Below are positions 7,243 to 42,706 of a stretch of DNA of 60,658 nucleotides, in pieces. Positions within the stretch are counted from its first letter, which is position 1; each line of letters starts with the position of its first letter. The DNA lies in assembly GCA_018241125.1 (NCBI GenBank), contig JAFEEL010000010.1, positions 1 through 60,658 on the forward strand, given 5' to 3'. Under the pieces are notes generated by a model. It was not told the DNA's origin. It ran no database searches and worked only from the letters and a program-made list of their open reading frames with translations. Position numbers and translations under genes: made by a program. Source of the stretch: Pseudomonadota bacterium (lineage in GTDB: Bacteria > Pseudomonadota > Gammaproteobacteria > Xanthomonadales > Xanthomonadaceae).

Positions 7243-8393
7243 GCCGATCGTTCCGGCACGCCATCGGGCGGGCGCAGACGCGCCAGCAAGCTGACCACGG
7301 TGAACAGCAGCAACGCCGCGCCGGCGTTGTGCGCCACCGCCACCGGCAGCGGCAGGTTGAACATCACGTTGGCGATGCCAAGGCTCACCTGCGCCAGCAG
7401 CAGCACCAACAGCAGCCCGCCCCAGCCGCGCACGCTGGGCGTGCGCAGCAGGCGGATGGCGACCGCGCCCAAGTGCCCGAGCACGAGCAAGGCGACGATG
7501 CGGTGGGTCTCCTGGATCGCGATGCGCGCCGGGTTGGCGAGCACGCCGCCGCTGTAGTCCACGCCGAAGCCACGCCAGAGCACGAAGCCTTGATGGAAAT
7601 CCATCTGCGGCCACCAGTGATTCAGGCAGGTCGGAAATTGCGCGCCGCAGGCCCACGCTGCGTAGTTGGCCGACGTCCAGCCGCCGAGCGCGAGTTGCAC
7701 CACCAGCAATCCGAATCCAATCCATAACAGGCGGCGCAGCTTGGGCGCGGTCGCCAGCGTCAGCCGCGCGCCCGGCGTGGCCTGCCACGCCAGCGCGACC
7801 AGCAGGGCAAACGTCGCCAGGCCGCCCAGCAGGTGGCCCATCACCACGATCGGCATCACCAGCCAGGTCACCGTCCACTGCCCGAGCAGCGCCTGGAAGA
7901 TCACCATCGCCAGCGCCAGCGCACCCAGCCGCGCGCAGGTGTCCTTGCCCGAACGCAGCGCGATCTTGAGCAGGATCAACTCACCCGATGCCGCCGCAAC
8001 GCCGGCGGCGACGTGCACCCCGCGCATGTATGCATACACCGACAAACCCACCGCGATGCTGGCGGTGGCCACCTCGACGATGCCGTTGCGCCGCCGGCGC
8101 ACCGCCAGCAGGGCCAACGCCAGCACCAGCACGCCCAGCGTGCCGGCGAGCATGCGGTGCACCTGTTCGCGCCACGCCAGCGCGCTTTCGTACGGCCGGC
8201 CGGGGAACGCCTGATCGGCGCGCGCCACGTCGTGCGCCTGCGTGGGCCACGCGGCGTGGCCATAGCAGGTGGGCCAGTCCGGGCAGCTCAGGCCGGCTTG
8301 CGACAAGCGAACGAAGGCACCGAACACGATCACGCACAGGGCGAAAGCGGCGGCCAGCCAGGCCAGCCGGTGGAAGTGGCGGTGCGGGGTCAT
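7239..8393 (-). CDS. ctaA: Heme A synthase (COX15/CtaA)
   Basis: 384 aa, eight predicted membrane segments. It oxidises heme O to heme A at the C8 methyl. The first helix and loop read [22 protein letters not shown], typical of COX15/CtaA, and paired heme-ligand histidines are seen in [10 protein letters not shown] and later [10 protein letters not shown] and [10 protein letters not shown]. The length fits the proteobacterial COX15 type. It is the first gene of a two-gene ctaA-ctaB operon and is divergent from the diguanylate cyclase gene across a 184-bp gap. Confidence 0.95.
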
Positions 8394-8577
8394 GCGGGCA
8401 TTTTACCCGTCACGGTGGCCATGTTTGGTGAGCAACCACGCGCCCCTGCGCCCCGAGGCGGGGAAAAGCGTGTGTCCGAGGCTGCCGAGAGCCACGCAAA
8501 TGCGCCATCATGGCAACCGACCCGAGGGCCACGATGCGTGGCTCGGGGATCTTCGAGGCGCGAGGAACATTGCGAGC

Positions 8578-9891
8578 ATGTCCACATCGGAACCGCCATC
8601 GTCCGCTGCGTCGTTCGACCCGTTCCGCGCGCTGCTGGACGAAGTCGGCGCGTTCGTCTACACCACCGACCGCCAAGGCCGCTACACCTATGCCAACCGT
8701 CTGGTGCTGGAGTTGCTCGGCGGGCACGCATTGGAATATGTGCTGGGCAAGGACATCAGCCATTTCTTCGGCGAGACAGGCAACGCCGCCTTGCGCGAAA
8801 CCGACCGACGGGTGCTGGAAGACGGTGAAACCCTGGTGCGCGAGGAGACCAACCTGATCGCCGCCACCGGCGAGCTGCGCACCTACTGGTCCACCAAGAA
8901 GCCGCTGCGCGATGCGACCGGCGCCATCGTCGGGCTGCTGGGCATCTCCCACGACATCACCGAGAAAAAGCGCCTGGAAGACACGGTGCGCGAGCAGAAC
9001 GCGATGCTCGACGCGATCCTGGAAAACGTCGACGCGCTGGTGTACGTCAAGGGCGCCGACCGGCGTTTTCGTTACGCCAACCAACGCACCGCCAGTGCTT
9101 TCGGCCTGCCAGTGGAGCGCATCGTCGGGGCGCTCGACAGCGAGCTGATGCCGGTCGAGGCCGCCGATCGCTTCTGGGAAAAGGATCGGCGAATCCTCGC
9201 CACCGGCGAACGTTGGGCCGGCGAGGAGACCTTGTTCGATGCCACCGGCAAGATGCATCACTACTGGAGCGTCGTGGCGCCGCTGCTGACACCCAATGGG
9301 CGGCCGGCAGTGGTTGGTTTGAGTACCGACATCACCGAGCTGCACGAGCTGAAAGAAGAACTGCGCCGGCAGGCGACCACCGATGGTCTGACCGGGATCG
9401 CCAACCGCCGCAGTTTTCTGGCGCAGGCCGAGCGCGAGTTCGCGCGCAGCCGTCGCCACGGCACCGCGCTGAGCTTGATCGCCATCGACATCGATCACTT
9501 CAAGCGCATCAACGACGAACTCGGGCATCCGACCGGCGACCGCGTGCTGCGCGAGTTCGCCGCCGCAGTCGCCGCGACCTTGCGTAGTGTGGACTTGTTC
9601 GCGCGTACCGGCGGCGAGGAGTTCTGCATCCTGTTGCCCGATACCGACGGCGAACAAGCCACGGTCACCGCGCAGCGCGTACGTGAGCTGGCGCACTCGG
9701 TGGTCGTCGATCCAGTGCAGGCGGATTGGTGCTTGCACCTGAGCGCCGGCGTGGCCAGCTTGCGCGCCGGCGATGACGGTTTCGAACAGCTGTTTGCGCG
9801 TGCCGATCGGGCGCTGTACGCGGCCAAGCGACAGGGGCGCGACCGCGTGAACCGGTCGGGCGACGACGAGAATGCTTCGTCAGCCCGCTGA
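8578..9891 (+). CDS. PAS-PAS-GGDEF diguanylate cyclase
   Basis: 437 aa. Two PAS domains (about residues 15-125 and 140-260, each closed by a DIT motif: SHDITEKKR, STDITELHE) are followed by a GGDEF domain. The active site is GGEEF, in ARTGGEEFCILLPD, and an intact inhibitory I-site RSVD lies exactly five residues upstream, so the protein is likely an active, product-inhibited c-di-GMP synthase. No membrane segment is seen, so sensing is probably cytoplasmic. The start ATG at 8578 has a CGAGGAA site upstream; the frame extends 103 codons further but without PAS-like sequence. Confidence 0.92.
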   Translation: MSTSEPPSSAASFDPFRALLDEVGAFVYTTDRQGRYTYANRLVLELLGGHALEYVLGKDISHFFGETGNAALRETDRRVLEDGETLVREETNLIAATGELRTYWSTKKPLRDATGAIVGLLGISHDITEKKRLEDTVREQNAMLDAILENVDALVYVKGADRRFRYANQRTASAFGLPVERIVGALDSELMPVEAADRFWEKDRRILATGERWAGEETLFDATGKMHHYWSVVAPLLTPNGRPAVVGLSTDITELHELKEELRRQATTDGLTGIANRRSFLAQAEREFARSRRHGTALSLIAIDIDHFKRINDELGHPTGDRVLREFAAAVAATLRSVDLFARTGGEEFCILLPDTDGEQATVTAQRVRELAHSVVVDPVQADWCLHLSAGVASLRAGDDGFEQLFARADRALYAAKRQGRDRVNRSGDDENASSAR

Positions 9892-9903
9892 GCCAACGCC
9901 GCT

Positions 9904-10836
9904 TCACCTCGCCGCTGCCGCCCGCTCGGTCAGCCAATCGCGCGGCCGCAGGTAATCGGCCAACCGTGCCTCCGCACTGCCAGCTTCCGGCGCGTAGCCG
10001 ATCTCCCAGCGCACGCGCGGCGGCAGGCTCATCAAGATCGCCTCGGTGCGGCCGCCGCTTTGCAGGCCGAACAGGGTGCCGCGATCCCAGACGAGGTTGA
10101 ACTCGACATAGCGGCCGCGTCGGTACAGCTGGAACTCGCGCTCGCGTTCACCATACGGCGTGTCCTTGCGCCACCGCACGATCGGCAGATACGCATCGAG
10201 ATAGGCATTGCCGACCGCACGCACGAAGCCGAAGGCGTTGGCGAAGCCGCCGTCGCGGAAGTCGTCGAAGAACAAGCCGCCCACGCCGCGCGCTTCGTTG
10301 CGATGTTTGAGAAAAAAATACTCGTCGCACCAGCGTTTGCAGCGCGCGTACAGATCCGTGCCGAACCGCATGCAGGCGTCGCGGGCGACGTGGTGCCAGT
10401 GCAGCACGTCGGCGTCGAAGGGATAGAACGGGGTGAGATCGAAACCGCCGCCGAACCACCAGATCGGTGCGCCGGATGCGGGCGTGGCTTCGAAGTAGCG
10501 CACGTTGGCATGGCTGGTCGGCACGTAGGGGTTGCGCGGGTGCACCACCAGCGACACGCCCACCGCACGCCACGGCGCGCCTGCCAGCTCGGGCCGGTGC
10601 GCGGTCGCCGAAGGCGGCAGGGTCGCGCCGCGCACGTCGGAAAAGCCCACGCCGGCTTGCTCGAACACCGCACCTTCGCGCAGCACCCGTGAGTTGCCGC
10701 CGCCGCCCTCAGGCCGCTGCCACACGTCGTCGCCAAAGCGCGCGCCGCCGTCGGCGTCTTCCAGCGCCGCGCAGATGCGCGTTTGCAGGCCGGAAAGAAA
10801 CACCTGGACGGCGACGATGTCGGGTGCATCGAGCAT
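9904..10836 (-). CDS. hemF: Oxygen-dependent coproporphyrinogen III oxidase
   Basis: 310 aa. It catalyses the two oxidative decarboxylations converting coproporphyrinogen III to protoporphyrinogen IX using O2. Family blocks include [38 protein letters not shown], and [15 protein letters not shown] near the C-terminus. The start is ATG 10836 ([15 protein letters not shown]); the longer open frame to 11337 runs antisense through the chorismatase gene. A TACGCT box ends about 8 bases before the ATG, so the transcript may be leaderless. Confidence 0.96.
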
Positions 10837-10900
10837 GGCGCGTAGCGTACACGGGCGAGCGTGCATGATAGTGGTTTGACCAGACTTCGGATGTTGAAAG

Positions 10901-10947
10901 CCCGCCGCGATCAGAACCGCAATCGGGCCTGCAAGGCCCTCCCACAA
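10901..10947. repeat. REP-like palindrome, hemF-chorismatase gap
   Basis: On the minus strand this reads GTGGGAGGGCCTTGCAGGCC followed by a degenerate CGCGGCGGGC half, the same family as 4382-4447 and 46248-46407. It lies in the divergent hemF/chorismatase intergenic region. Confidence 0.65.
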
Positions 10948-11006
10948 CAGCATGCGGACGGCCATTCCAAAGGACATGTGCAAGGCCCGCGCGCGGAGGC
11001 TGCGGC

Positions 11007-11012
11007 TATAAT
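11007..11012 (+). promoter_or_regulatory. -10 box (TATAAT) for the chorismatase gene
   Basis: A perfect TATAAT ends 8 bases before the GTG at 11021, so the transcript would begin at or within a few bases of the start codon (leaderless). No good -35 hexamer is visible 17 bases upstream (GGCCCG). Confidence 0.5.
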
Positions 11013-11020
11013 CGCCAGCA

Positions 11021-11956
11021 GTGAACGTCTCCCAGCAATCCGCCGCCACGCGCTCGCTTGCCGGCCCCGCCGCGCCGTCGTTGCGAGTGGACTTCGTCGA
11101 TCGACCGTCGGCGCTGCGGTTTGCTTTCGTCGCAGGCGTCGTTGACGCGCAGCCGGTGCGGTGCGCGCACCTGGCAGGGCCGCCCGAACCCGAATGCTGG
11201 CAGCTCGGCGCGGATTTCCGTGTGCAGGCACAAGCAGTGACGGAGATCGATGGCGACATCGAAACCGCTGCACGGCGTGCGTATGTGGCGGTGCTGGCGG
11301 CAGTTCGCGCCAGCGCACAACCGCATCTTGTGCGCATCTGGAACTACCTCGGCGCGATCAACGACGGTGCTGGCGACAACGAGCGCTACCGGCGCTTTTC
11401 CGTCGGTCGCGCCGCGGCGGCGGACGCGGCGTTCAACGCCGAGCCGCCGGCGGCCACTGCGATCGGCCACGACGGCGGCGCGGGCGTGTTGCAGGTCGTG
11501 GCGCTGTGCGCGGCGACGCCCGCCATCGCGCTGGAAAATCCGCGGCAGACGCCCGCCTGGAGCTACCCACGCGAATATGGCCCGGTGTCGCCGGGCTTTT
11601 CGCGCGGCGCGCTGCTGGATGCTGGATCGCACGCGCCCACGCTGCTGGCCTCGGGCACCGCGAGCATCGTCGGGCATGTTTCGCAGCACGTCGGCGATGT
11701 GGCCGAACAGCTGCGCGAGAGCCTGCGCAACCTCGATGCGCTGCTCACGGTCGGCAGCCAGCGCGCCGACATCGGGTTCCATTTCGAACGCTGCCAAGCG
11801 CTGCGCGTGTACCTGCGCCATGCGCACGATCTGCCGCTGGCGCAGGCGGTGATCGCGCGCAGTGGCCTGCCGTCCGAGTGCGTCGTCTATCTACGCGGCG
11901 ACGTATGCCGGCGCGAGCTGGACGTGGAGATCGAGGGCGTGTTCGGCGTGGGGTAG
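11021..11956 (+). CDS. xanB2: Chorismatase, XanB2/FkbO/Hyg5 family
   Basis: 311 aa. Chorismatases cleave pyruvate from chorismate; XanB2 of Xanthomonas makes 3- and 4-hydroxybenzoate for xanthomonadin pigment, signalling and ubiquinone. Signature blocks are [20 protein letters not shown] (about residues 107-126), [14 protein letters not shown] (about 183-197), [12 protein letters not shown] (about 212-223) and the C-terminal [11 protein letters not shown] with two glutamates. An in-frame stop at 11009 makes GTG 11021 the first possible start; internal TTG/GTG codons are alternatives. It stands alone: no xanthomonadin (pig) genes are adjacent in this window. The symbol reflects family resemblance; whether the product is 3-HBA, 4-HBA or a dihydroxy-diene cannot be read from the sequence. 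Confidence 0.85.
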
Positions 11957-11971
11957 ATTGCAGAGCCGATC

Positions 11972-12472
11972 TCAGCCGCGGTGGCTGCGAATCGACTCCA
12001 GCAATTCCACCAGTTCATCCGGCTCCATTCCGTAGGTATCCGGCAGCTGCGCCTCGAATCCGAAGTTGTCGAAGTTGAACTTGCGCAGGCGTGAGGCCGG
12101 GCCGCAGCCGGGCCGGTAATTCCAGCCCACCCACACGCCCCGCGCCGGCGAATGCCCGAGTACGCCGAACCCCACCACATCCTTCCAGAGCGTGCGGTGG
12201 CGGCGAAACAGCGCACGCATCTCGAAACCCTGCGCATCCAGTTGCAAGCGACTCACGCCGGGCACCAGTTGCAACGCGCTCACCAACGCGCACAACCCGA
12301 AAAACCCGATCACACACCACGCCTGCCACGCCGGCGAGTTCGCCGGATCGTGCAGCATGATCACTCCGCCCGCACCCAACGCCACCGAAATCGCCAGTAC
12401 CAGCAGCCACTTGCGCGGCGACGGGTTGAGCGTGATCGGCAATCGCGGCCGGGGCGATTGGGCAGCTGTCAT
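11972..12472 (-). CDS. Small membrane protein with PH-like domain, function unknown
   Basis: 166 aa, start MTAAQSPRPRLPITLNPSPR. Two hydrophobic helices near the N-terminus (WLLVLAISVALGAGGVIML and AWCVIGFFGLCALVSALQL) precede a beta-rich region (LQLDAQGFEMRALFRRHRTLWKDVVGFGVL) resembling small bacterial YcxB/PH-type domains, ending in an acidic helix. Its ATG overlaps the S9 peptidase stop as ATGA (12469-12472), so it is the coupled second gene of that operon. No catalytic motif is recognised. Confidence 0.75.
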   Translation of the reverse strand: MTAAQSPRPRLPITLNPSPRKWLLVLAISVALGAGGVIMLHDPANSPAWQAWCVIGFFGLCALVSALQLVPGVSRLQLDAQGFEMRALFRRHRTLWKDVVGFGVLGHSPARGVWVGWNYRPGCGPASRLRKFNFDNFGFEAQLPDTYGMEPDELVELLESIRSHRG

Positions 12473-14853
12473 TTCAGCGTATGCTCGAACAACTCGTCGA
12501 TGCGCCGATACTCGTCCAGCCACGCATCGGCGTCTTCGAAGGCGTGCCGTTCCAGCGGATAGGGCGCGATGCTCCAGCCATCCTTGTGCAGCTCGATGAG
12601 CTTTTGCACCAGCCGTACCGAATCCTGGAAGAACACGTTGTCGTCCATCATGCCGTGGCAGATCAGCAACGTGCCTCGGAGACCGTCGGCGAACTCGATC
12701 GGCGAACTGCGCCGGTAGGCTTCCGGGTCGAGGTCGGGCGTGTTGAGGATGGCTGAGGTATAACCGTGGTCGTACTCGGACCAGTCGGATACCGGGCGCA
12801 GCGCGGCGCCGGCCTTGAACACCTCGGGCGCGCGGAACAGCGCCATCAGGGTCATGAAGCCGCCGTAGCTGCCGCCGTAGATGCCGACCTTGTCCGGGTT
12901 GCCCTGGGCGTTGGCGACCATCCACTTCACGCCGTCCAGATAATCCTCCAGCTCGGGGTGGCCCATGTTGCGGTAGATCGCCGTGCGCCAGTCGCGGCCG
13001 TAGCCAGCCGAGCCGCGGTAATCCATCGCCATCACCACGTAGCCTTGCTGCACCAGCAACTGCTCGAACATCTGTTCGCGGAAGTAGTACGACCAGCGCG
13101 AGAAGCTGTCCTGCAGGTAGCCGGCGCCGTGCACGAACATCACGATCGGGTAACGTTTGCCGGGCTCCAGCGTGGCCGGTCGGTAGAGCTTGGCCCAGAT
13201 CGGTTTGGCGCCGTGCGTGGATGGCACCTGCACGAAGCGCGGGGCGAGGAAGCTGCGCGCCTTGTAGCTGTCCGTGCGGGTGTCGGTGAGCGCGGTGGCC
13301 TTGCCGCCAGCGGCCGGCACCACCGCCAGCTGCGGCGGCAGGAAGGGGCCCGAATAGCGCACCAGCAGCTGCTTTTGATCTGGTGACAGGGTGAAGTCTT
13401 CCACGCCTTGCAAGTCGGTGATCTCTTTCACCGCATCGGTGTGCAGGTCTTGTTCGCACACCTCGTAACCGCCCGGCCACTTGCGGTTGCACACGAACCA
13501 CGCGCGCATGCCATCAGCGGAAAGCTGCACGCCGGACGTTTCCCAGTCGCCGTGGGTGCGCTCGCGCGCCGGCTGCCCCGGCACCACGGTATACAGGTGC
13601 GAGTAGCCGGATTGTTCGGACAGCAGCCACAGCGTGCGGTTGTCCGGCATCCAGCCGAAATCGTTGAAGGCGAACGAGTTGACCCACGCCGGGTCGGTCA
13701 GGCGATGGGCGCTGACGAAGGCCTTGCCAGAAAAATCCACGGTGGCGATCCAGCGATCCTTGTTGTCCACGCTCAGCAGCTCCACCGCGAGCTGACGGCC
13801 ATCGGCGCTCCACGCCATGCCCGCAGCGCGCACCGGGCGATGGCCTTTCAGGGGCGCCTTGCCGGCGGCCTTGCGCAGCGCCGCCAGCGGGTCGACGTCG
13901 ATCCCCGGCAGGCCGGCGACGGACACATCGGCGAGCTTGCCCGTGCGCAGATCGATCAGCTTGAACGCCTCGCCCGGCGGGTCGTTGCGACCGACGCGGA
14001 TGCGCTCGGGCTCTTGTTCCTCGTAGCCGCTGTCGGTGACGAACTTCTGCAACTTGCCGATGCGCCCCGGATCGGCGTCCTTGGGCGAGGTCGCCACCAG
14101 CGCCAGGCGCCCGTCGGGCGAGAGCGACGAGGCATCGATGCTCGCATCGGCGCCCAGATACACCGGCGCCGGCGCGCGCGTCGGGTCGGCCGCGCGCTGC
14201 TCGCGCTGCTGTTGCTGGCGGGCGTCGCGGGCCTGCTTTTGCTCGCGCAAGGTGGCGAACAGGCGCATCTGGTTGGCTGCCATCACGTCCGGCGGCGGCG
14301 GCGCGTCCGGATCTTTTTCCGCCTTGAGTTGCAGCGCCGTCTCCACCACCCGTTGGTCGAAGCGGTAGCGGAACCAGGTGTCGTCGACGTGCCAGATCAC
14401 GCCGGCATCGCCCGCGGTAAAGTTCACATCAGACGCGCCGGCCACGCCACGGGTGACTTGCGTCAGGGTACCGGTTTGCAGATCGCGCACGAACACGTCG
14501 CCGTTGCGCACGAACACGCTGCGGCGGCGGGCGGCGTCGTAAACCGGGTTGCCGGCGTCCAGGTCGGCGCGTTCGGTGTCGGGCACCGCCCGCATCGGCG
14601 AACTACCGGACGCCGCGACCACATACAGGTCGCGCACGCCGCCGTGATCCGGGCTGCCAACGCGCTTGAGCGGGAAGTAGGCCTGCTTGCCGTCCCACGA
14701 CCACCAAGCGGTATCGATCGGCGGGCCGATCCAGTCCGGGTTGGCCATCGCCTGTTCGAGCGTAATCGACGTGGGCGGTGCCGTTGGCGGCGCCGGTTGC
14801 GCGAGCGCCCCGGCGACGGTGAGCGACAAAGGCAGCAAGAACGCGGCGCGCAT
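12469..14853 (-). CDS. S9 family prolyl oligopeptidase / DPP IV-like peptidase, exported
   Basis: 794 aa with a signal peptide (AAFLLPLSLTVAGALAQP), a long beta-propeller region with a Gln/Arg-rich insert around residue 205, and a C-terminal alpha/beta-hydrolase domain. The catalytic triad is visible: Ser in GGSYGGF (about 661), Asp in HGMMDDNVF (about 735) and His in ERHAFED (about 769). The propeller restricts access to small peptides in this family. It is probably periplasmic, degrading proline-containing peptides for nutrition, which fits the other exported peptidase at 4607. It forms a coupled pair with the small membrane protein downstream. Confidence 0.92.
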   Translation of the reverse strand: MRAAFLLPLSLTVAGALAQPAPPTAPPTSITLEQAMANPDWIGPPIDTAWWSWDGKQAYFPLKRVGSPDHGGVRDLYVVAASGSSPMRAVPDTERADLDAGNPVYDAARRRSVFVRNGDVFVRDLQTGTLTQVTRGVAGASDVNFTAGDAGVIWHVDDTWFRYRFDQRVVETALQLKAEKDPDAPPPPDVMAANQMRLFATLREQKQARDARQQQQREQRAADPTRAPAPVYLGADASIDASSLSPDGRLALVATSPKDADPGRIGKLQKFVTDSGYEEQEPERIRVGRNDPPGEAFKLIDLRTGKLADVSVAGLPGIDVDPLAALRKAAGKAPLKGHRPVRAAGMAWSADGRQLAVELLSVDNKDRWIATVDFSGKAFVSAHRLTDPAWVNSFAFNDFGWMPDNRTLWLLSEQSGYSHLYTVVPGQPARERTHGDWETSGVQLSADGMRAWFVCNRKWPGGYEVCEQDLHTDAVKEITDLQGVEDFTLSPDQKQLLVRYSGPFLPPQLAVVPAAGGKATALTDTRTDSYKARSFLAPRFVQVPSTHGAKPIWAKLYRPATLEPGKRYPIVMFVHGAGYLQDSFSRWSYYFREQMFEQLLVQQGYVVMAMDYRGSAGYGRDWRTAIYRNMGHPELEDYLDGVKWMVANAQGNPDKVGIYGGSYGGFMTLMALFRAPEVFKAGAALRPVSDWSEYDHGYTSAILNTPDLDPEAYRRSSPIEFADGLRGTLLICHGMMDDNVFFQDSVRLVQKLIELHKDGWSIAPYPLERHAFEDADAWLDEYRRIDELFEHTLK

Positions 14854-21664: not shown

Positions 21665-23430
21665 GCTGGCAGGCGTGGACGGTCGCGGGCCTGCTGGCCG
21701 GGGCGATGACCCTGTTCGTCAGCGAGAAGCTGCGCTACGACGTGATCGGCCTGCTGGTGCTGGGGGTGCTGCTGGCGACCGGCATCGTCACCCCGGCCGA
21801 GGGCTTGAGCGGCTTTTCCAACGAGGCCACGGTGGCGATCGCGGCGATGTTCGCGCTCAACGCCGGCGTGGTCGGCACCGGCGGGCTCGACCCGGTGGTG
21901 CGCATGCTGGTGCGCATCCGCAAGCCGTGGCTGCTGACCTTGTCGATCATGGGGATGATGGCGTTCCTCGGCGCGTTCATCAAGAACACCGCGCTGGTGG
22001 CGACCTTCCTGCCGGTGTGTCTGACCGTGTGTGCGCGCACGCGCACGCCGCCGTCGCGGGTGCTGATGCCGATGTCGTTCGCCGCGCAGATGGGCGGGGT
22101 GTGCACCCTGATCGGCACCTCTTCCAACCTGCTCACCAACAGCCTGGCCAAGCAGGAAGGGCTGGCCGGCTTTGGCGTGTTCGAGTTCGCCCAGCTCGGC
22201 GTGGTGCTGGCGATCGTCGGCATCGGTTACATGATGACGATCGGGCGCTGGTTGCTGCCCAAGTCCACCGACGTGCCGTTGGCCGAGGGCGCGGTGCACG
22301 GCAAGTACGTGACCGAGCTGCGGGTGAAGATCGGCTCGCCGTTGCTCGGTCGCGCGCTCGACGAGTTGCGGCTGGGCGAAAAATACGGCGTGGCGGTGCT
22401 CGAACTGGTGCGCGGCGAGGAACGCATGTGGTCGCCGCAATCGCAGAAGCTGGCCGCCGACGACGTGCTGGTGGTGCGCGGGGAGTGGGATCGGCTGGGC
22501 AAGTTCCAGTACGAGGCCGGGCTGGCGCTGCAAGCCAGTTCGCGCGCCGCGCAATGGGGCGGGATGGCGCGGCGGGTGCTGGTGCGCGCGTTGATCGCGC
22601 CCAATACGCACCTGGTCGGGCAGACCTTGGCCGAACTGGATTTTCGCTGGGCGTATCAGGCGTTGGTGTTGGCGGTGCAGCGCCGCGGCGAGGTGCTGCG
22701 GGAACGCATCCACAAGATCCGTCTGGACCGCGGCGACACCCTGATGATCCTGGTCGATGAAAAGGCGCTGCCGGACCTGGAGCGCGTACCCGGTCTGGTG
22801 GTGCTGGGCGAGCGCGCGCAGGCGCCGGCCTCACGCAAGCGCGCACCCATCGCCATCGCCATCCTGCTCGGGGTGATCGTGGTCTCCGGACTGGGCCTGC
22901 TGTCGATCGTGGTGGCCGCGCTGATCGGCTGCGTGCTGATGGCGCTGACCGGCTGCTTCAAGCATGCCGATCCCTACGAGGTGATGGACTGGAAGGTGAT
23001 CGTGCTGCTCGGCGCGGTGTTGCCGCTGGGCATCGCCATGCAGAAAACCGGGCTGGCGCAGCATCTGGTGGACATGGGCATGACGCTGGTGCACGACAAC
23101 GACCCGCTGCCGGGCCTGTTGATGGTGTATCTGCTGACCGCGCTGCTGACCGAGCTGATGGGGCACAATCCGTCAGTGGTCATCATGCTGCCGATCGGGG
23201 TGTCGGTGGCCCATGCCCTGCACGTGGACCCGACGCCGTTCGTGGTCGCCACCGCGTTCGCCGCCGCCACCTCCTTCGCCACTCCGGTCGGATACCCCAC
23301 CAACACCATGGTCTACAACGCCGGCGGTTACCGCTTCACTGACTTCCTCAAGATCGGGGTGCCGATGATCGCATTGTTCTGCGCGATCTCGATGGCGCTG
23401 ATCCCGCGCATCTGGCCGTTCGCGCCATGA
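21661..23430 (+). CDS. SLC13/DASS-type anion permease with two TrkA-C domains
   Basis: 589 aa. N- and C-terminal membrane halves of SLC13 type are seen (GFSNEATVAIAAMFALNAGV; FIKNTALVATFLPV; GTSSNLLTN; later LTELMGHNPSVVIMLPIGV and FATPVGYPTNTMVY). They flank a cytoplasmic region of about residues 210-390 with two RCK_C/TrkA-C-like modules (LGEKYGVAVLELVRG; YQALVLAVQRRGEVLRE). This architecture is known in sulfate and other oxyanion transporters. It lies between soeA and soeB, joined by ATGA overlaps on the soeB side (23427-23430), so it is part of the operon. I infer it moves sulfate out of, or sulfite or an organosulfonate into, the cell; the direction is not readable. Confidence 0.85.
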   Translation: MSWQAWTVAGLLAGAMTLFVSEKLRYDVIGLLVLGVLLATGIVTPAEGLSGFSNEATVAIAAMFALNAGVVGTGGLDPVVRMLVRIRKPWLLTLSIMGMMAFLGAFIKNTALVATFLPVCLTVCARTRTPPSRVLMPMSFAAQMGGVCTLIGTSSNLLTNSLAKQEGLAGFGVFEFAQLGVVLAIVGIGYMMTIGRWLLPKSTDVPLAEGAVHGKYVTELRVKIGSPLLGRALDELRLGEKYGVAVLELVRGEERMWSPQSQKLAADDVLVVRGEWDRLGKFQYEAGLALQASSRAAQWGGMARRVLVRALIAPNTHLVGQTLAELDFRWAYQALVLAVQRRGEVLRERIHKIRLDRGDTLMILVDEKALPDLERVPGLVVLGERAQAPASRKRAPIAIAILLGVIVVSGLGLLSIVVAALIGCVLMALTGCFKHADPYEVMDWKVIVLLGAVLPLGIAMQKTGLAQHLVDMGMTLVHDNDPLPGLLMVYLLTALLTELMGHNPSVVIMLPIGVSVAHALHVDPTPFVVATAFAAATSFATPVGYPTNTMVYNAGGYRFTDFLKIGVPMIALFCAISMALIPRIWPFAP

Positions 23431-24242
23431 CCGGCCTGCCCGCGCCGTCGCCGAAGAAACTCGGCCTGGTGATCGATCTGGACACCTGTGTGGGCTGCCA
23501 TGCCTGCGCGCTGGCGTGCAAGGAATGGAATGCTGGCGGCATCGCCGGGCCGCTGACCGACGAGAACCCCTACGGTGCCGAGCCGTTCGGGGTGTGGTTC
23601 AATCGGGTGCATTCGTATGAAGTGCAGGGAGAGGGGAGACGGGAGACGGGAGACAGATCGTCGACCGCCGCGCTTGCGTCTCCCGCTTCCCGTCTCCCGT
23701 CTCCCGCTCTCACCGTCCACTTCCCGCGCTCGTGCCTGCACTGCGAAACCCCGGCCTGCGTGACGGTGTGCCCGACCGGGGCCAGCTACAAGCGCGCCGC
23801 CGACGGCATCGTGCTGGTGGACGAGGACAAGTGCATCGGCTGCAAGCTGTGCTCGTGGGCCTGCCCGTATGGCGCGCGCGAGTATTCGGCGGTCGAGGGG
23901 GTGATGAAGAAGTGCACGCTGTGCGTAGATCGCATCTACAACGAGCATCTGGACGAATCCGAACGGCAGCCGGCCTGCGTGCAGGCCTGCCCGACCCGGG
24001 CGCGGCATTTTGGCGATCTGGGTGATCCCGATTCCAGCGTGTCGAAGTTGGTCGCCGAGCGCGGCGGCCGCGACCTGCTGCCGGAACTGGGCTACAAGCC
24101 GACCAACAAGTACCTGCCGCCGCGGCCGAGGCGGGCCGGTGGTGCGGTTGCATCCGACGCGTCGTCGCCGGCAAACGCAGTGCTCGACGCCAAGGCGTTG
24201 CCGCCGGTGTTGCGGTGGCTGGACAGGATGCTGTCGCGGTGA
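23427..24242 (+). CDS. soeB: Sulfite dehydrogenase iron-sulfur subunit (SoeB-like)
   Basis: 271 aa electron-transfer subunit with four 4Fe-4S cysteine groups: CVGCHACALACKEWN (about residue 22), CLHCETPACVTVCPTGA (about 103), CIGCKLCSWACPYGA (about 138) and CTLCVDRI...CVQACPTRA (about 163-190). It would carry electrons from SoeA to the membrane subunit. Between the first and second groups, residues about 67-94 (GEGRRETGDRSSTAALASPA and onward) are encoded by a low-complexity inverted repeat and look like an in-frame insertion. The start overlaps the transporter stop as ATGA. Confidence 0.9.
   Translation: MTGLPAPSPKKLGLVIDLDTCVGCHACALACKEWNAGGIAGPLTDENPYGAEPFGVWFNRVHSYEVQGEGRRETGDRSSTAALASPASRLPSPALTVHFPRSCLHCETPACVTVCPTGASYKRAADGIVLVDEDKCIGCKLCSWACPYGAREYSAVEGVMKKCTLCVDRIYNEHLDESERQPACVQACPTRARHFGDLGDPDSSVSKLVAERGGRDLLPELGYKPTNKYLPPRPRRAGGAVASDASSPANAVLDAKALPPVLRWLDRMLSR
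23626..23710. repeat. Low-complexity inverted-arm element inserted in frame in soeB
   Basis: A purine arm (GGGAGAGGGGAGACGGGAGA and one more unit) is followed by a spacer of about 22 bases and a pyrimidine arm (GTCTCCCGCTTCCCGTCTCC and more). The arms can pair into a long hairpin. The frame stays open through it. Confidence 0.85.
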
Positions 24243-35728: not shown

Positions 35729-36181
35729 TCAGGGCCGGTCGGGACGAGCCGCCAGCAGGAACGTCGCTGGCCCGTCGTTGACCAGCTCGACCTGCATGTG
35801 CGCCCCATAACGCCCGATGGCGACCAGCGGATGACGCGCGCGCGCCAGATCCACCAAATACTCGAACCAACGCAGTCCGGCGGCGGGGTCGGCCGCGGTG
35901 GAGAACCCCGGACGCATGCCCTTGCGGGTGTCGGCGGCCAGGGTGAACTGGCTGACCAGCAGCAGCCCGCCGCCGGTGTCGGCGAGGCAGCGGTTCATCC
36001 TGCCGTGCTCGTCTTCGAAAATGCGGTAGCCCAACAATCGCTCGCAGGTGCGCCGCGCCTGCGCCGCGCCGTCGCCCGGTTCGACCGCGACCAGCGCCAG
36101 CAGGCCCGCGCCGATGGCGCCCACGACCTGACCTTCGACGGCAACGCTGGCACGGGTCACGCGCTGGATCAGGGCGAGCAT
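35729..36181 (-). CDS. dtd: D-aminoacyl-tRNA deacylase
   Basis: 150 aa from [20 protein letters not shown]. It removes D-amino acids mischarged on tRNA. Conserved motifs are [18 protein letters not shown] (SQFTL) and the C-terminal NDGPATFLL (NxGPxT), which form the cross-subunit active site. Size is normal. A low-complexity repeat lies immediately upstream (36187-36233), and the longer frame through it is not credible. It is the last chromosomal-type gene before the helicase-nuclease island. Confidence 0.95.
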
Positions 36182-36186
36182 GGCAA

Positions 36187-36233
36187 GGGGGACGGGAGAC
36201 GGGAGACGGGAGGCGGGAGGCGGGAGACTGGAG
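36187..36233. repeat. Purine-rich low-complexity arm, left of helicase-nuclease gene
   Basis: Near-tandem GGGAGAC / GGGAGGC words. It matches the purine arm of the soeB element and faces a pyrimidine arm at 41745-41776 on the other side of the 5.4 kb gene. Confidence 0.85.
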
Positions 36234-36301
36234 AAATAAGCGTACCGTGACGCTTGCGGATTCCATATAGTGATCCACGGTGATGGTTCACCGGAGGTCG
36301 C

Positions 36302-39300
36302 ATGGTCCCTCAAGATGCTGATGGCCCTGTCGATGGTCAGGCTGATATCGAATCAGCCCTAGAGAAGCTGCGGTTGAAGTTGCTCGACCTGACGGGTCGC
36401 AACAGACTTCTGAACTTCAAGCACACCGCAGGACGTTCTCTTCAGCTTTGCCCACTGGATCTTGACAGGACTTTTCAGCGTCTTGTTACAACCGCTGGTG
36501 CTCGACTCACCTTATCCCCGGTCCCAGAACCCAGCCGCAATGACTGGGTGGAGAAGGCGGGGCGGCTAGCGAAGCCCGACGCAAAGGAGTTTGCTGCGCG
36601 ACAAGGCCTTCGCATTGAACTGGAGGAACCATCGCCAAAGGGCAACGAAACCCGAGATTGCACTTCGTGCCAGACCCTCTACTACACAGAAGATTTGGGG
36701 AAACATTGCCGAAAGCTTGATCGCGAAGCACGCCTCGCAATCGAGGAGACAGGCTCTAACATGTTTTATTTGGTGTTCGGATTCCTTGAGTTTCCGGATG
36801 TACCAGATTCAGATCGCCTCTTCCAGTCTCCGCTGATTTGCTTGCCGGCAAGAATGGAGCAAATCCAGGATGGAACGAAGACCATCTTCAAGCTCGCGTT
36901 TACAGGTGACGAAGTCGATGAAAATTTGTCCCTCCGCGAAAAACTGAAACGTGATCACTCATTTATCCTTCCATCTTTCCCTGAAGAAGAGGAAGGAATT
37001 GAACGCTATTTCCGGGAGATAGAACGAGCGATTTTCGACAAGCCACGCTGGCGCGTTCGGCGAGCGATGAATCTTGCCCTTTTGTCTTTTGCGAACATGC
37101 TGTTGATCGGCGAACTCGAACCCGATCGATGGGTGGATGCGGACGGAAACAACAGGCTGACCGATCACGAAGTTGTGATGCGCGTCTTCGAAGGGCAGGA
37201 ACATGGCCCATCGGTTGATGGAGAGACCCAATACGCCGACGAATACGATATTGACTCTAGCCCCAGCTACGACTTCCCTATCATCTTCGATGCCGACAGT
37301 TCGCAGCACAGTGCGCTGATCGACGTCATGAAGGGCTACACGATGGTGATTGAAGGGCCTCCCGGCACAGGGAAGTCTCAAACGATTACAAACATCATTG
37401 CCGCGTGCCTGCACGCAGGGAAGTCGGTGCTATTCGTCGCGGAAAAATTGGCAGCGTTACAGGTGGTGAAGGGACGCCTCGAACAGGCGGGCTTGGAGTC
37501 GTTTGTGCTTGAGCTCCATTCGAACAAGACAAGCAAAAAACTCGTGCTGGAATCCATCAATGAACGGCTCAAAAAGCGTGCACCACCCAACAGAAATGTC
37601 GAAGCCGACGAAGCTCGGCTTAGCGAGCAGAAGGCGGCCCTCCGGGAACATGCAGACCTCCTTGAAAGTCACATCGGCAACAATCTCGGATGCTCCGTCC
37701 ACGACATTCTTTGGCGTGCCGAACGAGCTCGCTGCAAACTGGGACCTTCGGCTGAGACCTTCAAGCCAGTTGCCATTGAAGGCGCTCCCACGTTCTCCAT
37801 GCGGGACTATCAGTCAAGAACTGATCAGGTTCGATATCTAGCAAATCACTACGATGAAGTCGGCTCGTACAATGCTGATCACCCATTGTGGGGTTTCTAT
37901 CCGAATATCTTGGCTCCGGGCGACGATCTGGCCATTAGCAACGCAGTTGCCGAGGGACTCTCCCTGGCATCTAGACTTGAACAACTCACGGATCAGCTTG
38001 TAGTTGATTTTCACTTCAAACAAGACGAAACGTTAGGAAGCGTGAAGATCAGCGAGACCGCGCAACAGGCGGACCAATTGGTCAAGTCGCTGCCTTCCAT
38101 CACGTCGTTGGATGTCTTGGTTAGAATTTTTTCCCGCGATCGATCGCATAGTGACGTTGCCATTCAGGCGATTGAGGATGGGCAGAAGAAACTAAAGCAA
38201 ATCGACGATCTTCGCGAGCGAACCACAGGAAAACTTCTTCTTGAACAAGTACCCAAGTGCCGAATCTTGGACGCTGACGAAGCGTTTGCGCGCCAACTCA
38301 AGATCGACGGCCTAACCGCTTCAGCACTGGCGTTGCTGGCCCACAAATTGGCGCAAGCCACCGCTGAAGCTACCTATTCGGTCGCAGAGCTAGATCGTTT
38401 ATCCTCGATAGAGGGGCTGTCGGCCGCAAACAGCATATCGGGCAATGATCAGTTCCACGCCTGCATCGCCGCTGTTCGCACAGCACCTACAGCACTATTT
38501 TTATTGCGTCACGATGGCTTAGTCGCATCCGACGCTTCCGGAGTCCTGAGTCGCGCCATTTCGCAGCGCACAAGTCTTTTGGATACAGAGAAAGACTTAG
38601 CGAGTCGGCTTTATCTCGATGACCTTCCAGATGAGCGCGAGGTTCGTGCAGCCATCTTGACGCTGAGAGAGGGAGCGCGGTGGTTCAGGATTTTCCAAAA
38701 ACCGTGGCGGAGAGCCATTGCGCTACATCGCAAGCTACAGCGGCGAAAGCAGCGAATCCCCTCTGCCGCGCGTCTGGAAGAACTGGAAGCCCTTACAAGA
38801 CTCACGCGTGAAAAGGCTGCGTGGCTCGAAGATCGTTCGCTGCGGACGATCGCGGGACAGGCCTTTCACGGTTTCGATACTCCGCTGGATCAACTTCAAG
38901 ATCTTGTCGCTTGGATCAATTGCACCAAAAAGAGCCTTGAACTGGCAAGTGCGCATTCGGTCGGGCTCCGGCCCGAAACTGTTTCGGTCTCCACGGTCGA
39001 GAAGCTGCGGGCCGCCGACGAGGGCTTCTCGACGCATAAGAGGGCCCTTGCGAAATTCAGCGCTGGAATCGCCACGTTCTTGCCCGGCACGATCCCTGAC
39101 TTCGATGATGGCGGCTCAGCCTTATGGACGGTAAAACTGGAGGCTTTGGCCCGTACCACAAAGCGAATTGCGGAATTGGCAAACCAAGCCGCGCTAGTGG
39201 CTGCACCAGAAGTTCCGCTAGGTACCATCTTCGAAACCTTGAAGTGTGCACGAACTCTTTTGATATGCGAACAAGAGCTTGCGTCGTCGAAGGTGCTGGC

Positions 39301-41722
39301 CGATGCGCTGGGCGATCGTCACTCCAGATTCCGCGATGAGCTTGACGAGATCAATAGAGCTATCGCTTTTGGCTTGGTGGTTAGGAAGTCAACCTTCCCC
39401 GCGGAGCTCAAGCAACAACTTTGCTCGGAACGCGCCTGCACGCTTGTCCCAGTGTTGAAGCGACTCGTTTCTGAGATCGAAAGGCTCTGGCACGAGCTTC
39501 AGAAGCAACTGCACACGCTACGGCAGTTTGGTGAAGTCCATAAAGCTGAATGGATGCCGCATTGCAAGCCTGATGCTAGCGAAGCTTCGCTCACGAAGGT
39601 GAAATTCGAGCGGGCTCAGTCTGGGGTCGACGGGCTAATCGCGTGGTCACAGTACCTTCAAGGGCGTAAGGCTTGCATTGAGCTCAATCTTTCAGCGTTT
39701 GTCGAGGCACTCGAAAGCCAAAGCGTTTCCTCGAAGTTGTTGCCGTACGCATTTACCTATCGATTCCACGCATCCATTGCTGAGAGCTTGTTTCGTCAAC
39801 ATCAGGTTTTGAAACGCTTCCGGGCTACTCACCACAACAACGTCAGATCAGATTTCCGTGCGCTGGATAAGGCGCTAATAGCCGTACGCGGGCGCCAGAT
39901 CGCCGCCCGCTGCATAAAGACCGCTGCGCCCCCTTCCGGCAACAACGGAATGCGGGTTGAGCAGAAAACGGAGATGCATCTCATCGATCTTCTCCGATAT
40001 CAGGTACGGCCACGCGTAACTGTGCGCTCCATGATGAAGCGTGCCGGGCGTGCGATACAGGCTCTGAAGCCATGCTTCATGATGGGTCCTCAGGCCGTGG
40101 CTCAGTTCTTGGACCCTGGAGCGCTGATGTTCGATGTAGTAATCATGGACGAGGCGTCACAGATGCGGCCGGAGGCGGCAATCGGCGCGATTGCCAGAGG
40201 CAAGCAATTGATCGTTGTAGGGGATCCCAAGCAGCTTCCGCCCACTTCATTCTTCTCTCGGTCGCAGGCACCTGAAGACGAACAACAACATTTTGCTGCG
40301 GTGGATGCCGAGTCGATTCTAGATGTCGCATCCATGCATTTCACGCCCGTGCGCTCGTTACGATGGCACTATCGCTCGCGCCACGAATCCCTGATTGCGT
40401 TTTCGAATCAGAAGTTTTACGACGGCAAGTTGCATGTGTTTCCATCGCCGTACCCGCGCTCAAAGGCTCTCGGAGTTCGTTCTCACTTTGTAGCTGATGC
40501 GGTCTATGAGAATCAGATGAACCAAAGAGAAGCTGCTCGAGTGGTGGACTTCATTGTTGAGCATGTTACGTCGAACCCAGGTCTTTCTTTGGGTGTTGTG
40601 ACATTGAATGTCAGACAGCGAGATCTTATCTCGGAGCTACTCCAAGAGCGTTTCAGGGCAGTTCCCGCCGCGGATCGCGTTTTGGAGAAATGGAGCAAGG
40701 AAGGTCAAGGGCTTTTCGTAAAGAACCTAGAAAATGTCCAGGGTGATGAGCGTGACTCCATCATCATATCGACCACATTTGGTCGCCCCCCCGGCGCGAG
40801 CAGACCGCATCAATACTTTGGCCCGATTAGTCAGGAGGGTGGCTGGCGCCGGCTAAACGTGCTGTTTACCAGAGCTCGTTCATCGGTCCTCGTAGTCACG
40901 TCGCTTCGCGATACGGACATAGTTGTCGACATACGAACGCCAAGAGGGACTCGGGCACTCAGGGACTATCTTTTGTTTGCTTCAACTGGTGTCCTCAGAC
41001 ACGAGTCGGGAACAGAAACCGGCCTCAGCCCAGAGTCTGACTTTGAGATTGCGGTCATCACAGCCCTTCAGATGGAGGGCTATACATGCGTACCGCAGGT
41101 CGGTGTTGGCACCTTCCGCATCGACATAGGCGTACGGCACCCGGTATACCCGCATCTTTTTCTCGCGGGGATTGAGTGTGATGGAGCCGCCTATCATTCG
41201 GGGGTCACAGTCCGCGATAGAGACCGGATCCGTCAGGAGATACTTGAGTGTTTGGGCTGGAAGGGAAAGCTTTGGCGCATTTGGTCTACAGAGTGGTTCC
41301 GGGGTCCCCGCGCTGAGTTGAAGAAGCTACTGGTGTTTCTCGCCGGTCTCGCGGCACAGCAACTGGATCCAACTATCGTGTTGGAAGACATAGGGACAGC
41401 TCAGGACGAGCCCGGCGAGATCGTGAGCGAAGATTTGTCGGCCGTCAGCGAACAAGCTATGACGCTTGTCTTGGATTCCAATGACCTAGAAGTTGAGGTT
41501 GGGGACCACGTCACTTACATCGATCTGGATGTCGATCCTGCTAGGGAAGTTTCGGTAGCTATCTCCAACAGCACCCACGACCTTACCCAAGGGATAATTT
41601 CCAGTCAGAGTCCATTTGCTCAAGCTCTTATCGGAGGGATGGTCGACGAGACGGTGGTATTGAGGATCCCTCGAAACCCTGACCGCCATTTCAAAATTCA
41701 GAGTATCCAACGAAGATCATGA
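36302..41722 (+). CDS. Giant DUF4011 SF1 helicase with C-terminal MTES_1575-type nuclease
   Basis: 1806 aa. The N-terminal DUF4011 block is RLKLLDLTGRNRLLNFKH (about residues 24-41), continuing with LYYTEDLGKHCRKLDREARL (about 126). Walker A is EGPPGTGKSQT (about 350), followed by roughly 900 residues of mostly helical sequence. Motif II is VIMDEASQM (about 1280), then VVGDPKQLPPTSFF (about 1309), WHYRSRHESLIAFS (about 1357), the QGDERDSIIIS segment (about 1481) and NVLFTRARSSVLV (about 1519). The tail (about 1580-1680) is a restriction-like nuclease: FRIDIGVRHP and GIECDGAAYHS supply D and E-x-D, then IWSTEWFRG. GC is near half by eye, far below its neighbours, and the codon use is unlike theirs. 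It stands alone between dtd and an LPS gene: a one-gene island. Such helicase-nuclease fusions occur among candidate phage-defence genes; that role is inference. Confidence 0.88.
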   Translation: MVPQDADGPVDGQADIESALEKLRLKLLDLTGRNRLLNFKHTAGRSLQLCPLDLDRTFQRLVTTAGARLTLSPVPEPSRNDWVEKAGRLAKPDAKEFAARQGLRIELEEPSPKGNETRDCTSCQTLYYTEDLGKHCRKLDREARLAIEETGSNMFYLVFGFLEFPDVPDSDRLFQSPLICLPARMEQIQDGTKTIFKLAFTGDEVDENLSLREKLKRDHSFILPSFPEEEEGIERYFREIERAIFDKPRWRVRRAMNLALLSFANMLLIGELEPDRWVDADGNNRLTDHEVVMRVFEGQEHGPSVDGETQYADEYDIDSSPSYDFPIIFDADSSQHSALIDVMKGYTMVIEGPPGTGKSQTITNIIAACLHAGKSVLFVAEKLAALQVVKGRLEQAGLESFVLELHSNKTSKKLVLESINERLKKRAPPNRNVEADEARLSEQKAALREHADLLESHIGNNLGCSVHDILWRAERARCKLGPSAETFKPVAIEGAPTFSMRDYQSRTDQVRYLANHYDEVGSYNADHPLWGFYPNILAPGDDLAISNAVAEGLSLASRLEQLTDQLVVDFHFKQDETLGSVKISETAQQADQLVKSLPSITSLDVLVRIFSRDRSHSDVAIQAIEDGQKKLKQIDDLRERTTGKLLLEQVPKCRILDADEAFARQLKIDGLTASALALLAHKLAQATAEATYSVAELDRLSSIEGLSAANSISGNDQFHACIAAVRTAPTALFLLRHDGLVASDASGVLSRAISQRTSLLDTEKDLASRLYLDDLPDEREVRAAILTLREGARWFRIFQKPWRRAIALHRKLQRRKQRIPSAARLEELEALTRLTREKAAWLEDRSLRTIAGQAFHGFDTPLDQLQDLVAWINCTKKSLELASAHSVGLRPETVSVSTVEKLRAADEGFSTHKRALAKFSAGIATFLPGTIPDFDDGGSALWTVKLEALARTTKRIAELANQAALVAAPEVPLGTIFETLKCARTLLICEQELASSKVLADALGDRHSRFRDELDEINRAIAFGLVVRKSTFPAELKQQLCSERACTLVPVLKRLVSEIERLWHELQKQLHTLRQFGEVHKAEWMPHCKPDASEASLTKVKFERAQSGVDGLIAWSQYLQGRKACIELNLSAFVEALESQSVSSKLLPYAFTYRFHASIAESLFRQHQVLKRFRATHHNNVRSDFRALDKALIAVRGRQIAARCIKTAAPPSGNNGMRVEQKTEMHLIDLLRYQVRPRVTVRSMMKRAGRAIQALKPCFMMGPQAVAQFLDPGALMFDVVIMDEASQMRPEAAIGAIARGKQLIVVGDPKQLPPTSFFSRSQAPEDEQQHFAAVDAESILDVASMHFTPVRSLRWHYRSRHESLIAFSNQKFYDGKLHVFPSPYPRSKALGVRSHFVADAVYENQMNQREAARVVDFIVEHVTSNPGLSLGVVTLNVRQRDLISELLQERFRAVPAADRVLEKWSKEGQGLFVKNLENVQGDERDSIIISTTFGRPPGASRPHQYFGPISQEGGWRRLNVLFTRARSSVLVVTSLRDTDIVVDIRTPRGTRALRDYLLFASTGVLRHESGTETGLSPESDFEIAVITALQMEGYTCVPQVGVGTFRIDIGVRHPVYPHLFLAGIECDGAAYHSGVTVRDRDRIRQEILECLGWKGKLWRIWSTEWFRGPRAELKKLLVFLAGLAAQQLDPTIVLEDIGTAQDEPGEIVSEDLSAVSEQAMTLVLDSNDLEVEVGDHVTYIDLDVDPAREVSVAISNSTHDLTQGIISSQSPFAQALIGGMVDETVVLRIPRNPDRHFKIQSIQRRS

Positions 41723-41744
41723 GCGATCGAGACGTTGTGCATTC

Positions 41745-41776
41745 CGTCTCTCCTCTCCCGCTTCCCATCCCCCTTA
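41745..41776. repeat. Pyrimidine-rich low-complexity arm, right of helicase-nuclease gene
   Basis: GTCTCTCCTCTCCCGCTTCC and following bases, the complementary sense of the purine arm at 36187-36233. It runs up to the -10-like TACACT before the acyltransferase gene. Confidence 0.75.
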
Positions 41777-41788
41777 CACTCTGCGCCC

Positions 41789-42706
41789 ATGCGTTTGGCC
41801 GACCTCGCCGGATCCTCCCTGTACGCGCTGGCCTATTTCGTCGGCCGGCTGCCGCTGCGGGCGCTCGACGGCCTCGGCGCGGTGACTGCGTGGCTGGCGC
41901 GGGTGCTGGACGTGCGCGAGGCGCGGGTGGCGCGCTGCAATCTGGCGGTGATCGGCCCGCCGCTGGATGGGCCTGCTCGCGAGCGCATGTTGCGACAGAC
42001 GCTGCGGGCCACCTTCACCGGGCTGTTCCAGACCCTGCGCTTGTGGACGCGCCCGGAACGCGCCAACCTGCGCCTGATCGGTGCCGTGCACGGGCAGGCG
42101 GCGTTCGATGCGGCGCTGGCCGCGGGCAAGGGCCTGATCGTGGCCGCGCCGCATTACGGCAACTGGGAGCTGCTCAACCAGTGGCTGGCGTCGCGCACGC
42201 CGATCATGATCCTGTACCGCCCGCCCGAGCATGCCTCCGGCGAGGCCTTCCTGCGCCGGGTGCGTGGGCGGGCGAACGTGCAACAGGTGCCGGCCACGGG
42301 CACGGCGATGCGGCAATTGTTCCGCACGCTCGCAGGTGGTGGCGTGGTGGGCATCCTGCCCGATCAACAGCCCAAGGCGGGTGATGGATTGTTCGCGCCG
42401 TTCTTCGGTCGCCCGGCGCTGAGCATGACCTTGCTGCCGCGGCTGGCGCAGCGCACCGGAGCGAGCGTGCTGTTCGCGGTCGCCGAACGCGTTGCCGGGC
42501 GGGCGCACTTTGATATCCACATTTTTCCTGCCGATGCAGCGCTGCATGGCGACGACCTCGCGGCGGCGGTGGCGGCGATGAATGCGGCGGTGGAAGCCAT
42601 CGCGCGCCGCGATCTGGCGCAGTACCAGTGGACCTACAAGCGTTACAGCGTGTTGCCGCCGGGCACGCTCGGTCCCGATCCCTACGCGCCGGGATTCGTG
42701 CCGTGA
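41789..42706 (+). CDS. LpxL/HtrB-type lysophospholipid acyltransferase
   Basis: 305 aa from ATG 41789 (MRLADLAGSSLYALAYFVGR). A membrane-associated acyltransferase of the lipid A late-acyltransferase family. It has an N-terminal hydrophobic helix, the catalytic HX4E motif in APHYGNWELLNQW (about residue 121), and the downstream GILPDQQPKAGDG and FFGRPALSMT blocks. The likely job is acylating Kdo-lipid A. TACACT ends 8 bases before the ATG, suggesting a leaderless transcript. It is joined to the next glycosyltransferase by a GTGA overlap. Confidence 0.88.
   Translation: MRLADLAGSSLYALAYFVGRLPLRALDGLGAVTAWLARVLDVREARVARCNLAVIGPPLDGPARERMLRQTLRATFTGLFQTLRLWTRPERANLRLIGAVHGQAAFDAALAAGKGLIVAAPHYGNWELLNQWLASRTPIMILYRPPEHASGEAFLRRVRGRANVQQVPATGTAMRQLFRTLAGGGVVGILPDQQPKAGDGLFAPFFGRPALSMTLLPRLAQRTGASVLFAVAERVAGRAHFDIHIFPADAALHGDDLAAAVAAMNAAVEAIARRDLAQYQWTYKRYSVLPPGTLGPDPYAPGFVP

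Follow-up and report, generated by a model that had tools for sequence, protein, structure and literature searches.

Single-chain proteins that combine a DUF4011 domain, a superfamily 1 (SF1) helicase and an MTES_1575 nuclease are an already known kind, and Hhe is the described relative of the gene presented here. We analysed a 60,658-nt stretch of contig JAFEEL010000010.1 from a bacterium of the family Xanthomonadaceae (the window, meaning this whole stretch), where one gene between dtd and lpxL codes for an 1806-aa DUF4011 helicase-nuclease with a C-terminal GreA/GreB (Gre) domain (Table 1). An earlier note on this DNA had proposed a lone defence-type helicase-nuclease gene, for which it could name no described system. 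The gene is indeed one intact open reading frame (ORF), its defence-type kinship is borne out by PADLOC and NCBIfam matches, and its described kin is Hhe. The product is probably an anti-virus DNA-cutting enzyme, and its Gre module suggests that it may seek invading DNA where that DNA is transcribed. As a whole, we give about even chances to the reading that the gene came by horizontal transfer and encodes a stand-alone anti-phage helicase-nuclease of the Hhe/DUF4011 kind, which belongs to a Gre-bearing subfamily and is putatively tethered to RNA polymerase.

The window protein shares with Hhe the three domains in the same order, and an annotated Hhe of a Klebsiella plasmid is 34% identical to it (558/1664 columns). 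On the NCBIfam Hhe model (NF042953) it scored 1296 bits, with a match that stopped at model position 1689, short of the C-terminal end at 1797. As this score lies under the curated cut-off of 2000, the protein is kin of Hhe and not a member by the NCBIfam test. Other Gre-bearing proteins reached 1422 (L157), 1441 (L150) and 1368 bits (L159). The cut-off was passed by three of the tested proteins: L156 (2433 bits), L196 (2411 bits) and L249. The last, annotated as Hhe and carried on a plasmid, has little sequence beyond the nuclease and adjoins an IS5 transposase. L156 and L196 are full-length and end in a helical tail, whereas the window protein ends in the Gre domain. ProA and other DUF3320-tailed DUF4011 proteins have the same helicase-nuclease core; on the ProA model (NF058533, cut-off 1500) the window protein scored 1029.8 bits, compared with 1450 for the DUF3320-tailed L088. 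Pfam found DUF4011 and MTES_1575, and PADLOC returned Hhe and, as its best match, the candidate system PDC-S37 (1139.5 bits), an entry without a description, whose best stretch ends at residue 1711, ahead of the Gre domain. With Mokosh MkoA and MkoC the window protein has the SF1 helicase block in common (83 and 72 bits), with the best stretch confined to residues 1276-1535 and no match found beyond that block. The nuclease of Mokosh is of the PLD type, and Pfam found no PLD domain in the window protein. As a separate observation, the right flank of the Pseudomonas aeruginosa core defence hotspot cDHS1 is marked by a conserved DUF4011 gene, according to the available part of PMC10250203.

The helicase motifs and the ECDG motif of the nuclease are intact in the window protein; the C-terminal helicase block carries DEASQ (1283-1287), GDPKQLPPT, QGDERD and LNVLFTRAR. 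The DUF4011 domain, helicase and C-terminal nuclease of the earlier note thus stood, but that note had overlooked the C-terminal Gre domain, which is the most informative part. It matched Pfam PF01272 with 40.2 bits, above the cut-off of 26.9. The domain has the Gre C-domain fold, and both sequence and fold single it out as akin to GreA, Gfh1 and Rnk, with which it also shares a loop. Conservation of this loop, expected to touch RNA polymerase, is partial (P1771, A1773). When aligned to GreA, the window protein has serines 1767 and 1770 at positions of GreA serines, and either, or neither, may match S127 of MtbGre. As described in the available text of PMC3132773, S127 is a C-domain serine given as the counterpart of S119 in E. 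coli GreA and is needed for RNA-polymerase binding, and the known job of the Gre C-domain is to hold the factor at the RNA-polymerase secondary channel. Pfam reported the C-terminal domain alone, without the N-domain, the coiled coil that stimulates cleavage of the transcript; the Gre part of the window protein would dock and not cleave RNA.

The Gre fusion marks a distinct subfamily of DUF4011 helicase-nucleases. A one-genome-per-species collection scanned with a three-member alignment gave at least 449 confirmed relatives, of which the best 80 were used. Three loci that end too early were dropped, the window protein and 11 loci found by other searches were added, and the resulting 89 C-termini were compared, with tail domains called at E ≤ 0.001. 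The Gre domain was present in 49 of them (in L151 below the Pfam cut-off), DUF3320 in five and a DksA/TraR finger in one; because Gre-bearing queries were used to draw the sample, these counts are not frequencies in nature. In a tree of the helicase-nuclease part, with the tail excluded, the Gre label required 7 changes, compared with a mean of 29.3 for shuffled labels. The labels "helical", "none" and "other" were our own, and L162 was counted as Gre, though in-frame stops precede its Gre part. The main clade (SH-aLRT 99, by the quick method) held 56 rows: 48 with Gre, six without a tail domain, L208 with an FGE-sulfatase domain as its tail, and L227 with DksA. L151 and L221 carry Gre outside this clade; the tree has a long-branch warning that includes both of them and the window protein.

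L227, from a metagenome-assembled contig labelled Akkermansia muciniphila, is nested inside the Gre clade, and there DksA replaces Gre. Its tail (13041-13601) is a DksA-like domain (6ptg, E 1.3e-17) in the same ORF (7053-13601), with like guanine-plus-cytosine (GC) content (0.397 and 0.377). Among the matches listed, best first, in 398 genomes of the phylum, none spans the nuclease and the DksA part, and no second DksA fusion thus emerged among them. Elsewhere in the sample, three close relatives, the Chlorobium, Methylococcaceae and Chlorobiaceae records L192, L199 and L206, tree neighbours of L208, share one end point, about where Gre would begin (EEYLDIE or EEYPDSE, then a stop), and no Gre-like sequence was seen in the 360 bases after the stop. 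The Gre-bearing member L204 (12846-14351) runs on into zinc-ribbon matches of the topoisomerase type, below the Pfam cut-off.

The window gene is an insertion into the normally short divergent gap between dtd and lpxL. Of 89 family genomes searched with both genes, 85 had listed matches to both, and in 82 the best matches lay on one contig, where they were divergent neighbours in 81. In 77 of the 81 same-contig genomes other than the window's own, the gap was 37-522 bp; the exceptions were G035 (1014 bp), G001 (3098 bp), G060 (26191 bp) and G110 (rearranged). With just these four of 81 pairs longer or rearranged, dtd-lpxL was rejected as a defence hotspot. In the G001 gap, two ORFs resembled by eye a DUF1501/DUF1800 pair, and the listed G060 ORFs of at least 330 aa resembled core genes by eye. 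Two further genomes of the same genus, G002 and G004, have gaps of about 350 and 80 bp. The protein found no helicase match in any of four same-genus genomes (G004 is just 71% complete); G001 and G003 matched over the Gre domain only, the open frames concerned being 240 and 161 aa long. Among 60 genomes searched with it, ten matched: the window's own, three by the Gre part alone and six with helicase matches. In the G003 gap (L081), the sequence beside the lpxL match reads by eye like the start of an insertion-sequence (IS) transposase ORF, perhaps an IS remnant.

The lower GC that the earlier note ascribed to the gene was borne out: 0.541, compared with 0.71 for both dtd and lpxL, and 0.53-0.57 in 1-kb windows across it, compared with about 0.62-0.71 in the flanks. 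Its codon usage, to which the earlier note had also pointed, is no outlier: the mean distance of 0.115 lies within the 0.057-0.215 spanned by 23 reference ORFs, a rough comparison, as these were hand-chosen and some are possibly in the wrong frame. Codon use is thus not decisive as proof of foreign origin. A promoter and terminator scan gave fewer sites than shuffled sequence. The gene is best read as a solitary mobile cassette in a formerly short divergent intergenic region. Within the subfamily, proteins of Brachymonas and Acidithiobacillus records are 92.7% identical over 1814 aa, which points to recent transfer. Matches occurred in 443 plasmid and 3 phage records, none covering 80% of the query, and the 30 plasmid matches listed of the 443 all stop at residue 1694, ahead of the Gre domain.

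The surroundings of other members were compared in 50 Gre- or DksA-bearing loci, 48 of which had neighbour ORFs of at least 140 aa (164 ORFs, up to two on each side, searched with PADLOC at 1e-20 in two sets of 82). Some members have restriction, BREX or Wadjet genes at their side. Type I methyltransferases accounted for up to eight of the first 82 ORFs (among the first 25 of 111 families); BrxL, JetA, IetS and type III restriction-modification proteins occurred once each in the second 82 (among the first 25 of 144 families). By eye, PglZ- and BrxL-like genes precede L150, and a Wadjet-like set adjoins L159, L167, L188 and L201. A control of 49 ORFs from the window and G060 gave 14 PADLOC families, each in one member, ten of them being matches of one UvrD-like ORF; this control is rough, as the sets differ in size and taxa and wrong-frame ORFs were hand-replaced in the control and not in the neighbour sets. 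Together with the kinship described above, the neighbours make a defence function of the window protein very probable.

From the presence of the Gre domain we infer the following mode of action. The SF1 helicase would move along nucleic acid, and the Vsr-like PD-(D/E)XK domain would cut it. The Gre domain, on its flexible linker, would dock on RNA polymerase at the secondary channel, by way of the beta-prime coiled coil, and thereby keep the nuclease where DNA is transcribed and opened. The target could be phage DNA that is heavily transcribed or backtracked, or that has exposed strands. The putative docking seems fairly probable to us, while targeting coupled to transcription is more tentative and falls somewhat short of even chances. 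DksA differs from Gre in fold and shares its address at the secondary channel. Its presence in one nested relative is what would be expected if the address, not the fold, were under selection, and this favours a tether. Still more tentatively, we propose a transcription-coupled immunity, in which a mobile single-gene defence helicase-nuclease travels with host RNA polymerase, or is brought in by it, through a Gre (once DksA) module and attacks DNA at the place of its transcription. A helicase-nuclease kept inactive until a phage factor arrives has been described for Hna, in the available part of PMC13381803.

Alternatively, the protein could be an ordinary Hhe-like defence protein, with Gre as an oligomerisation or stability module that makes no contact with RNA polymerase and with sensing placed in DUF4011 or the coiled region; the cue might be replication intermediates or phage single-stranded DNA-binding protein, as reported for another helicase-nuclease. 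We consider this rather unlikely, as both sequence and fold point to Gre, Gfh1 and Rnk, and the substitute tail within the clade, the FGE-sulfatase of L208 aside, is DksA, also a secondary-channel factor. The same anatomy would suit a guard, in which Gre serves as bait: phage proteins that act against the secondary channel or sit in it would bind Gre and so set the nuclease free (abortive infection). Host RNA polymerase is modified by many phages, and both Gre and DksA would be suitable baits; nevertheless, the partly conserved contact loop suits docking as well as bait, and we regard the guard as improbable. A housekeeping enzyme of transcription-coupled repair or RNA-polymerase recycling, similar to HelD and not devoted to defence, is slightly less probable again; HelD, which has a role in transcription recycling, is not known to possess DUF4011 or a nuclease.

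How helicase-nuclease defences distinguish phage from host DNA is not settled. The specificity of anti-phage nucleases was reviewed in 2026 (PMC12904381); the available part of that review has sections devoted to sequence and modification, to recombination and repair, to DNA ends and to membrane location, and a term search of its text did not find "RNA polymerase". If the tether is real, the transcription machinery would be a recruiting platform and thus a further answer. The exchangeable tails (Gre, DksA, DUF3320, helical) would then be aiming parts that direct a common cutting engine to one cellular machine or another. Since Gre-tailed members occur in numerous records from proteobacteria and in some others, a positive result would reach beyond the window's genome. 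In the literature searched, which left out most subscription papers, we found no Hhe-type protein described with a Gre or DksA domain, no Gre subfamily and no tether idea; the available part of PMC12839542 does not mention GreA.

The heptamer repeats that flank the gene are bystanders from a genome-wide simple-repeat family. The earlier note had seen them as the arms of an element into whose spacer the gene was inserted, or between which it was mobilised by recombination. The insertion stands, as shown above; its place in a repeat element is not supported. The left GGGAGAC array is real, scoring 27/28 to (GGGAGAC)4. On the right there is a heptamer-like tract, which lacks any exact copy of the repeat 12-mer CGGGAGACGGGA and scores 22/28, where the best window sites outside the arms (57401 and 53495) score 21/28. 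An ungapped inverted match between the two flanks covers 36/50 nt (72%). The paired arms noted inside soeB were also confirmed, at about 23627-23654 and 23678-23705, with a spacer of roughly 23 nt. The exact 12-mer occurs 93 times in the window's genome and its reversed control not once. In 27 repeat loci (26 stretches from this genome and the soeB locus), it was found in one orientation at 24 and in both at three, where the starts of the facing copies lie 48, 148 and 408 nt from each other. In G098 and G035, four and two GGGAATC heptamers respectively lie at the start of dtd with no helicase gene beside them; the array there in G002 is of another kind, and by eye G003 and G004 have none. No empty site with adjacent arms was seen by eye in these five gene-free gaps, which were read from end to end and contain no N, and no direct-repeat pair brackets the gene among the 20 listed of at least 60 repeat families. 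Despite heptamer-like tracts on both sides of the gene and facing 12-mers at three loci, the single orientation elsewhere, the gene-free heptamers at dtd, the poor right arm and the lack of bracketing repeats among the families listed led us to reject the arms as an insertion vehicle, a reading that is highly improbable.

In Xanthomonas, GGGAATC heptamers form G-quadruplexes and are mostly intergenic, at a mean of 28 nt from the 5' neighbouring ORF, according to the available part of PMC4692102; GGGAGAC is absent from its text. In the window's genome (e.g. L110, L112, L119), GGGAGAC arrays are intermixed with GGGAAGC, GGGAGCA and GAGGACA-type arrays, hence several simple-repeat families share the same sites.

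Table 1. Coordinates of the helicase-nuclease gene, its domains, its core neighbours and the heptamer repeats in the window.
Feature	Position	Strand	Residues and remarks
DUF4011 / SF1 helicase / Vsr-like nuclease / GreA-GreB C-domain protein	36302..41722	+	single gene, 1806 aa
DUF4011 domain	36377..36946	+	26-215; Pfam PF13195, 107 bits, cut-off 22.2
SF1 helicase N-terminal motifs	37304..37486	+	335-395; Walker A GPPGTGKS 352-359; Pfam AAA_19, motif search
SF1 helicase C-terminal motifs	40127..40903	+	1276-1534; Pfam AAA_11/AAA_12, motif search
MTES_1575 restriction-endonuclease-like domain	41042..41335	+	1581-1678; ECDG 1625-1628
Low-confidence linker	41378..41470	+	1693-1723; predicted local distance difference test (pLDDT) <50 at model residues 153-183
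GreA/GreB C-terminal (RNA-polymerase-binding) domain	41489..41710	+	1730-1803
dtd, left core neighbour	35732..36181	-	divergent from lpxL in 81/82 same-contig genomes
lpxL-type acyltransferase, right core neighbour	41789..42703	+	
GGGAGAC heptamer array	36187..36233	+	just upstream of dtd, outside the gene; member of genome-wide family
Weak pyrimidine-rich counterpart	41745..41776	-	just upstream of lpxL; 22/28 to heptamer
Paired heptamer arms in ORF 23427-24242 (soeB per the earlier note)	23627..23705	.	one of 3/27 two-orientation loci

The window contains a second low-GC stretch (0.55-0.57) at 89-2779, occupied by an 896-aa UvrD-like helicase ORF that partially matches PADLOC GajB models (best 1e-38).
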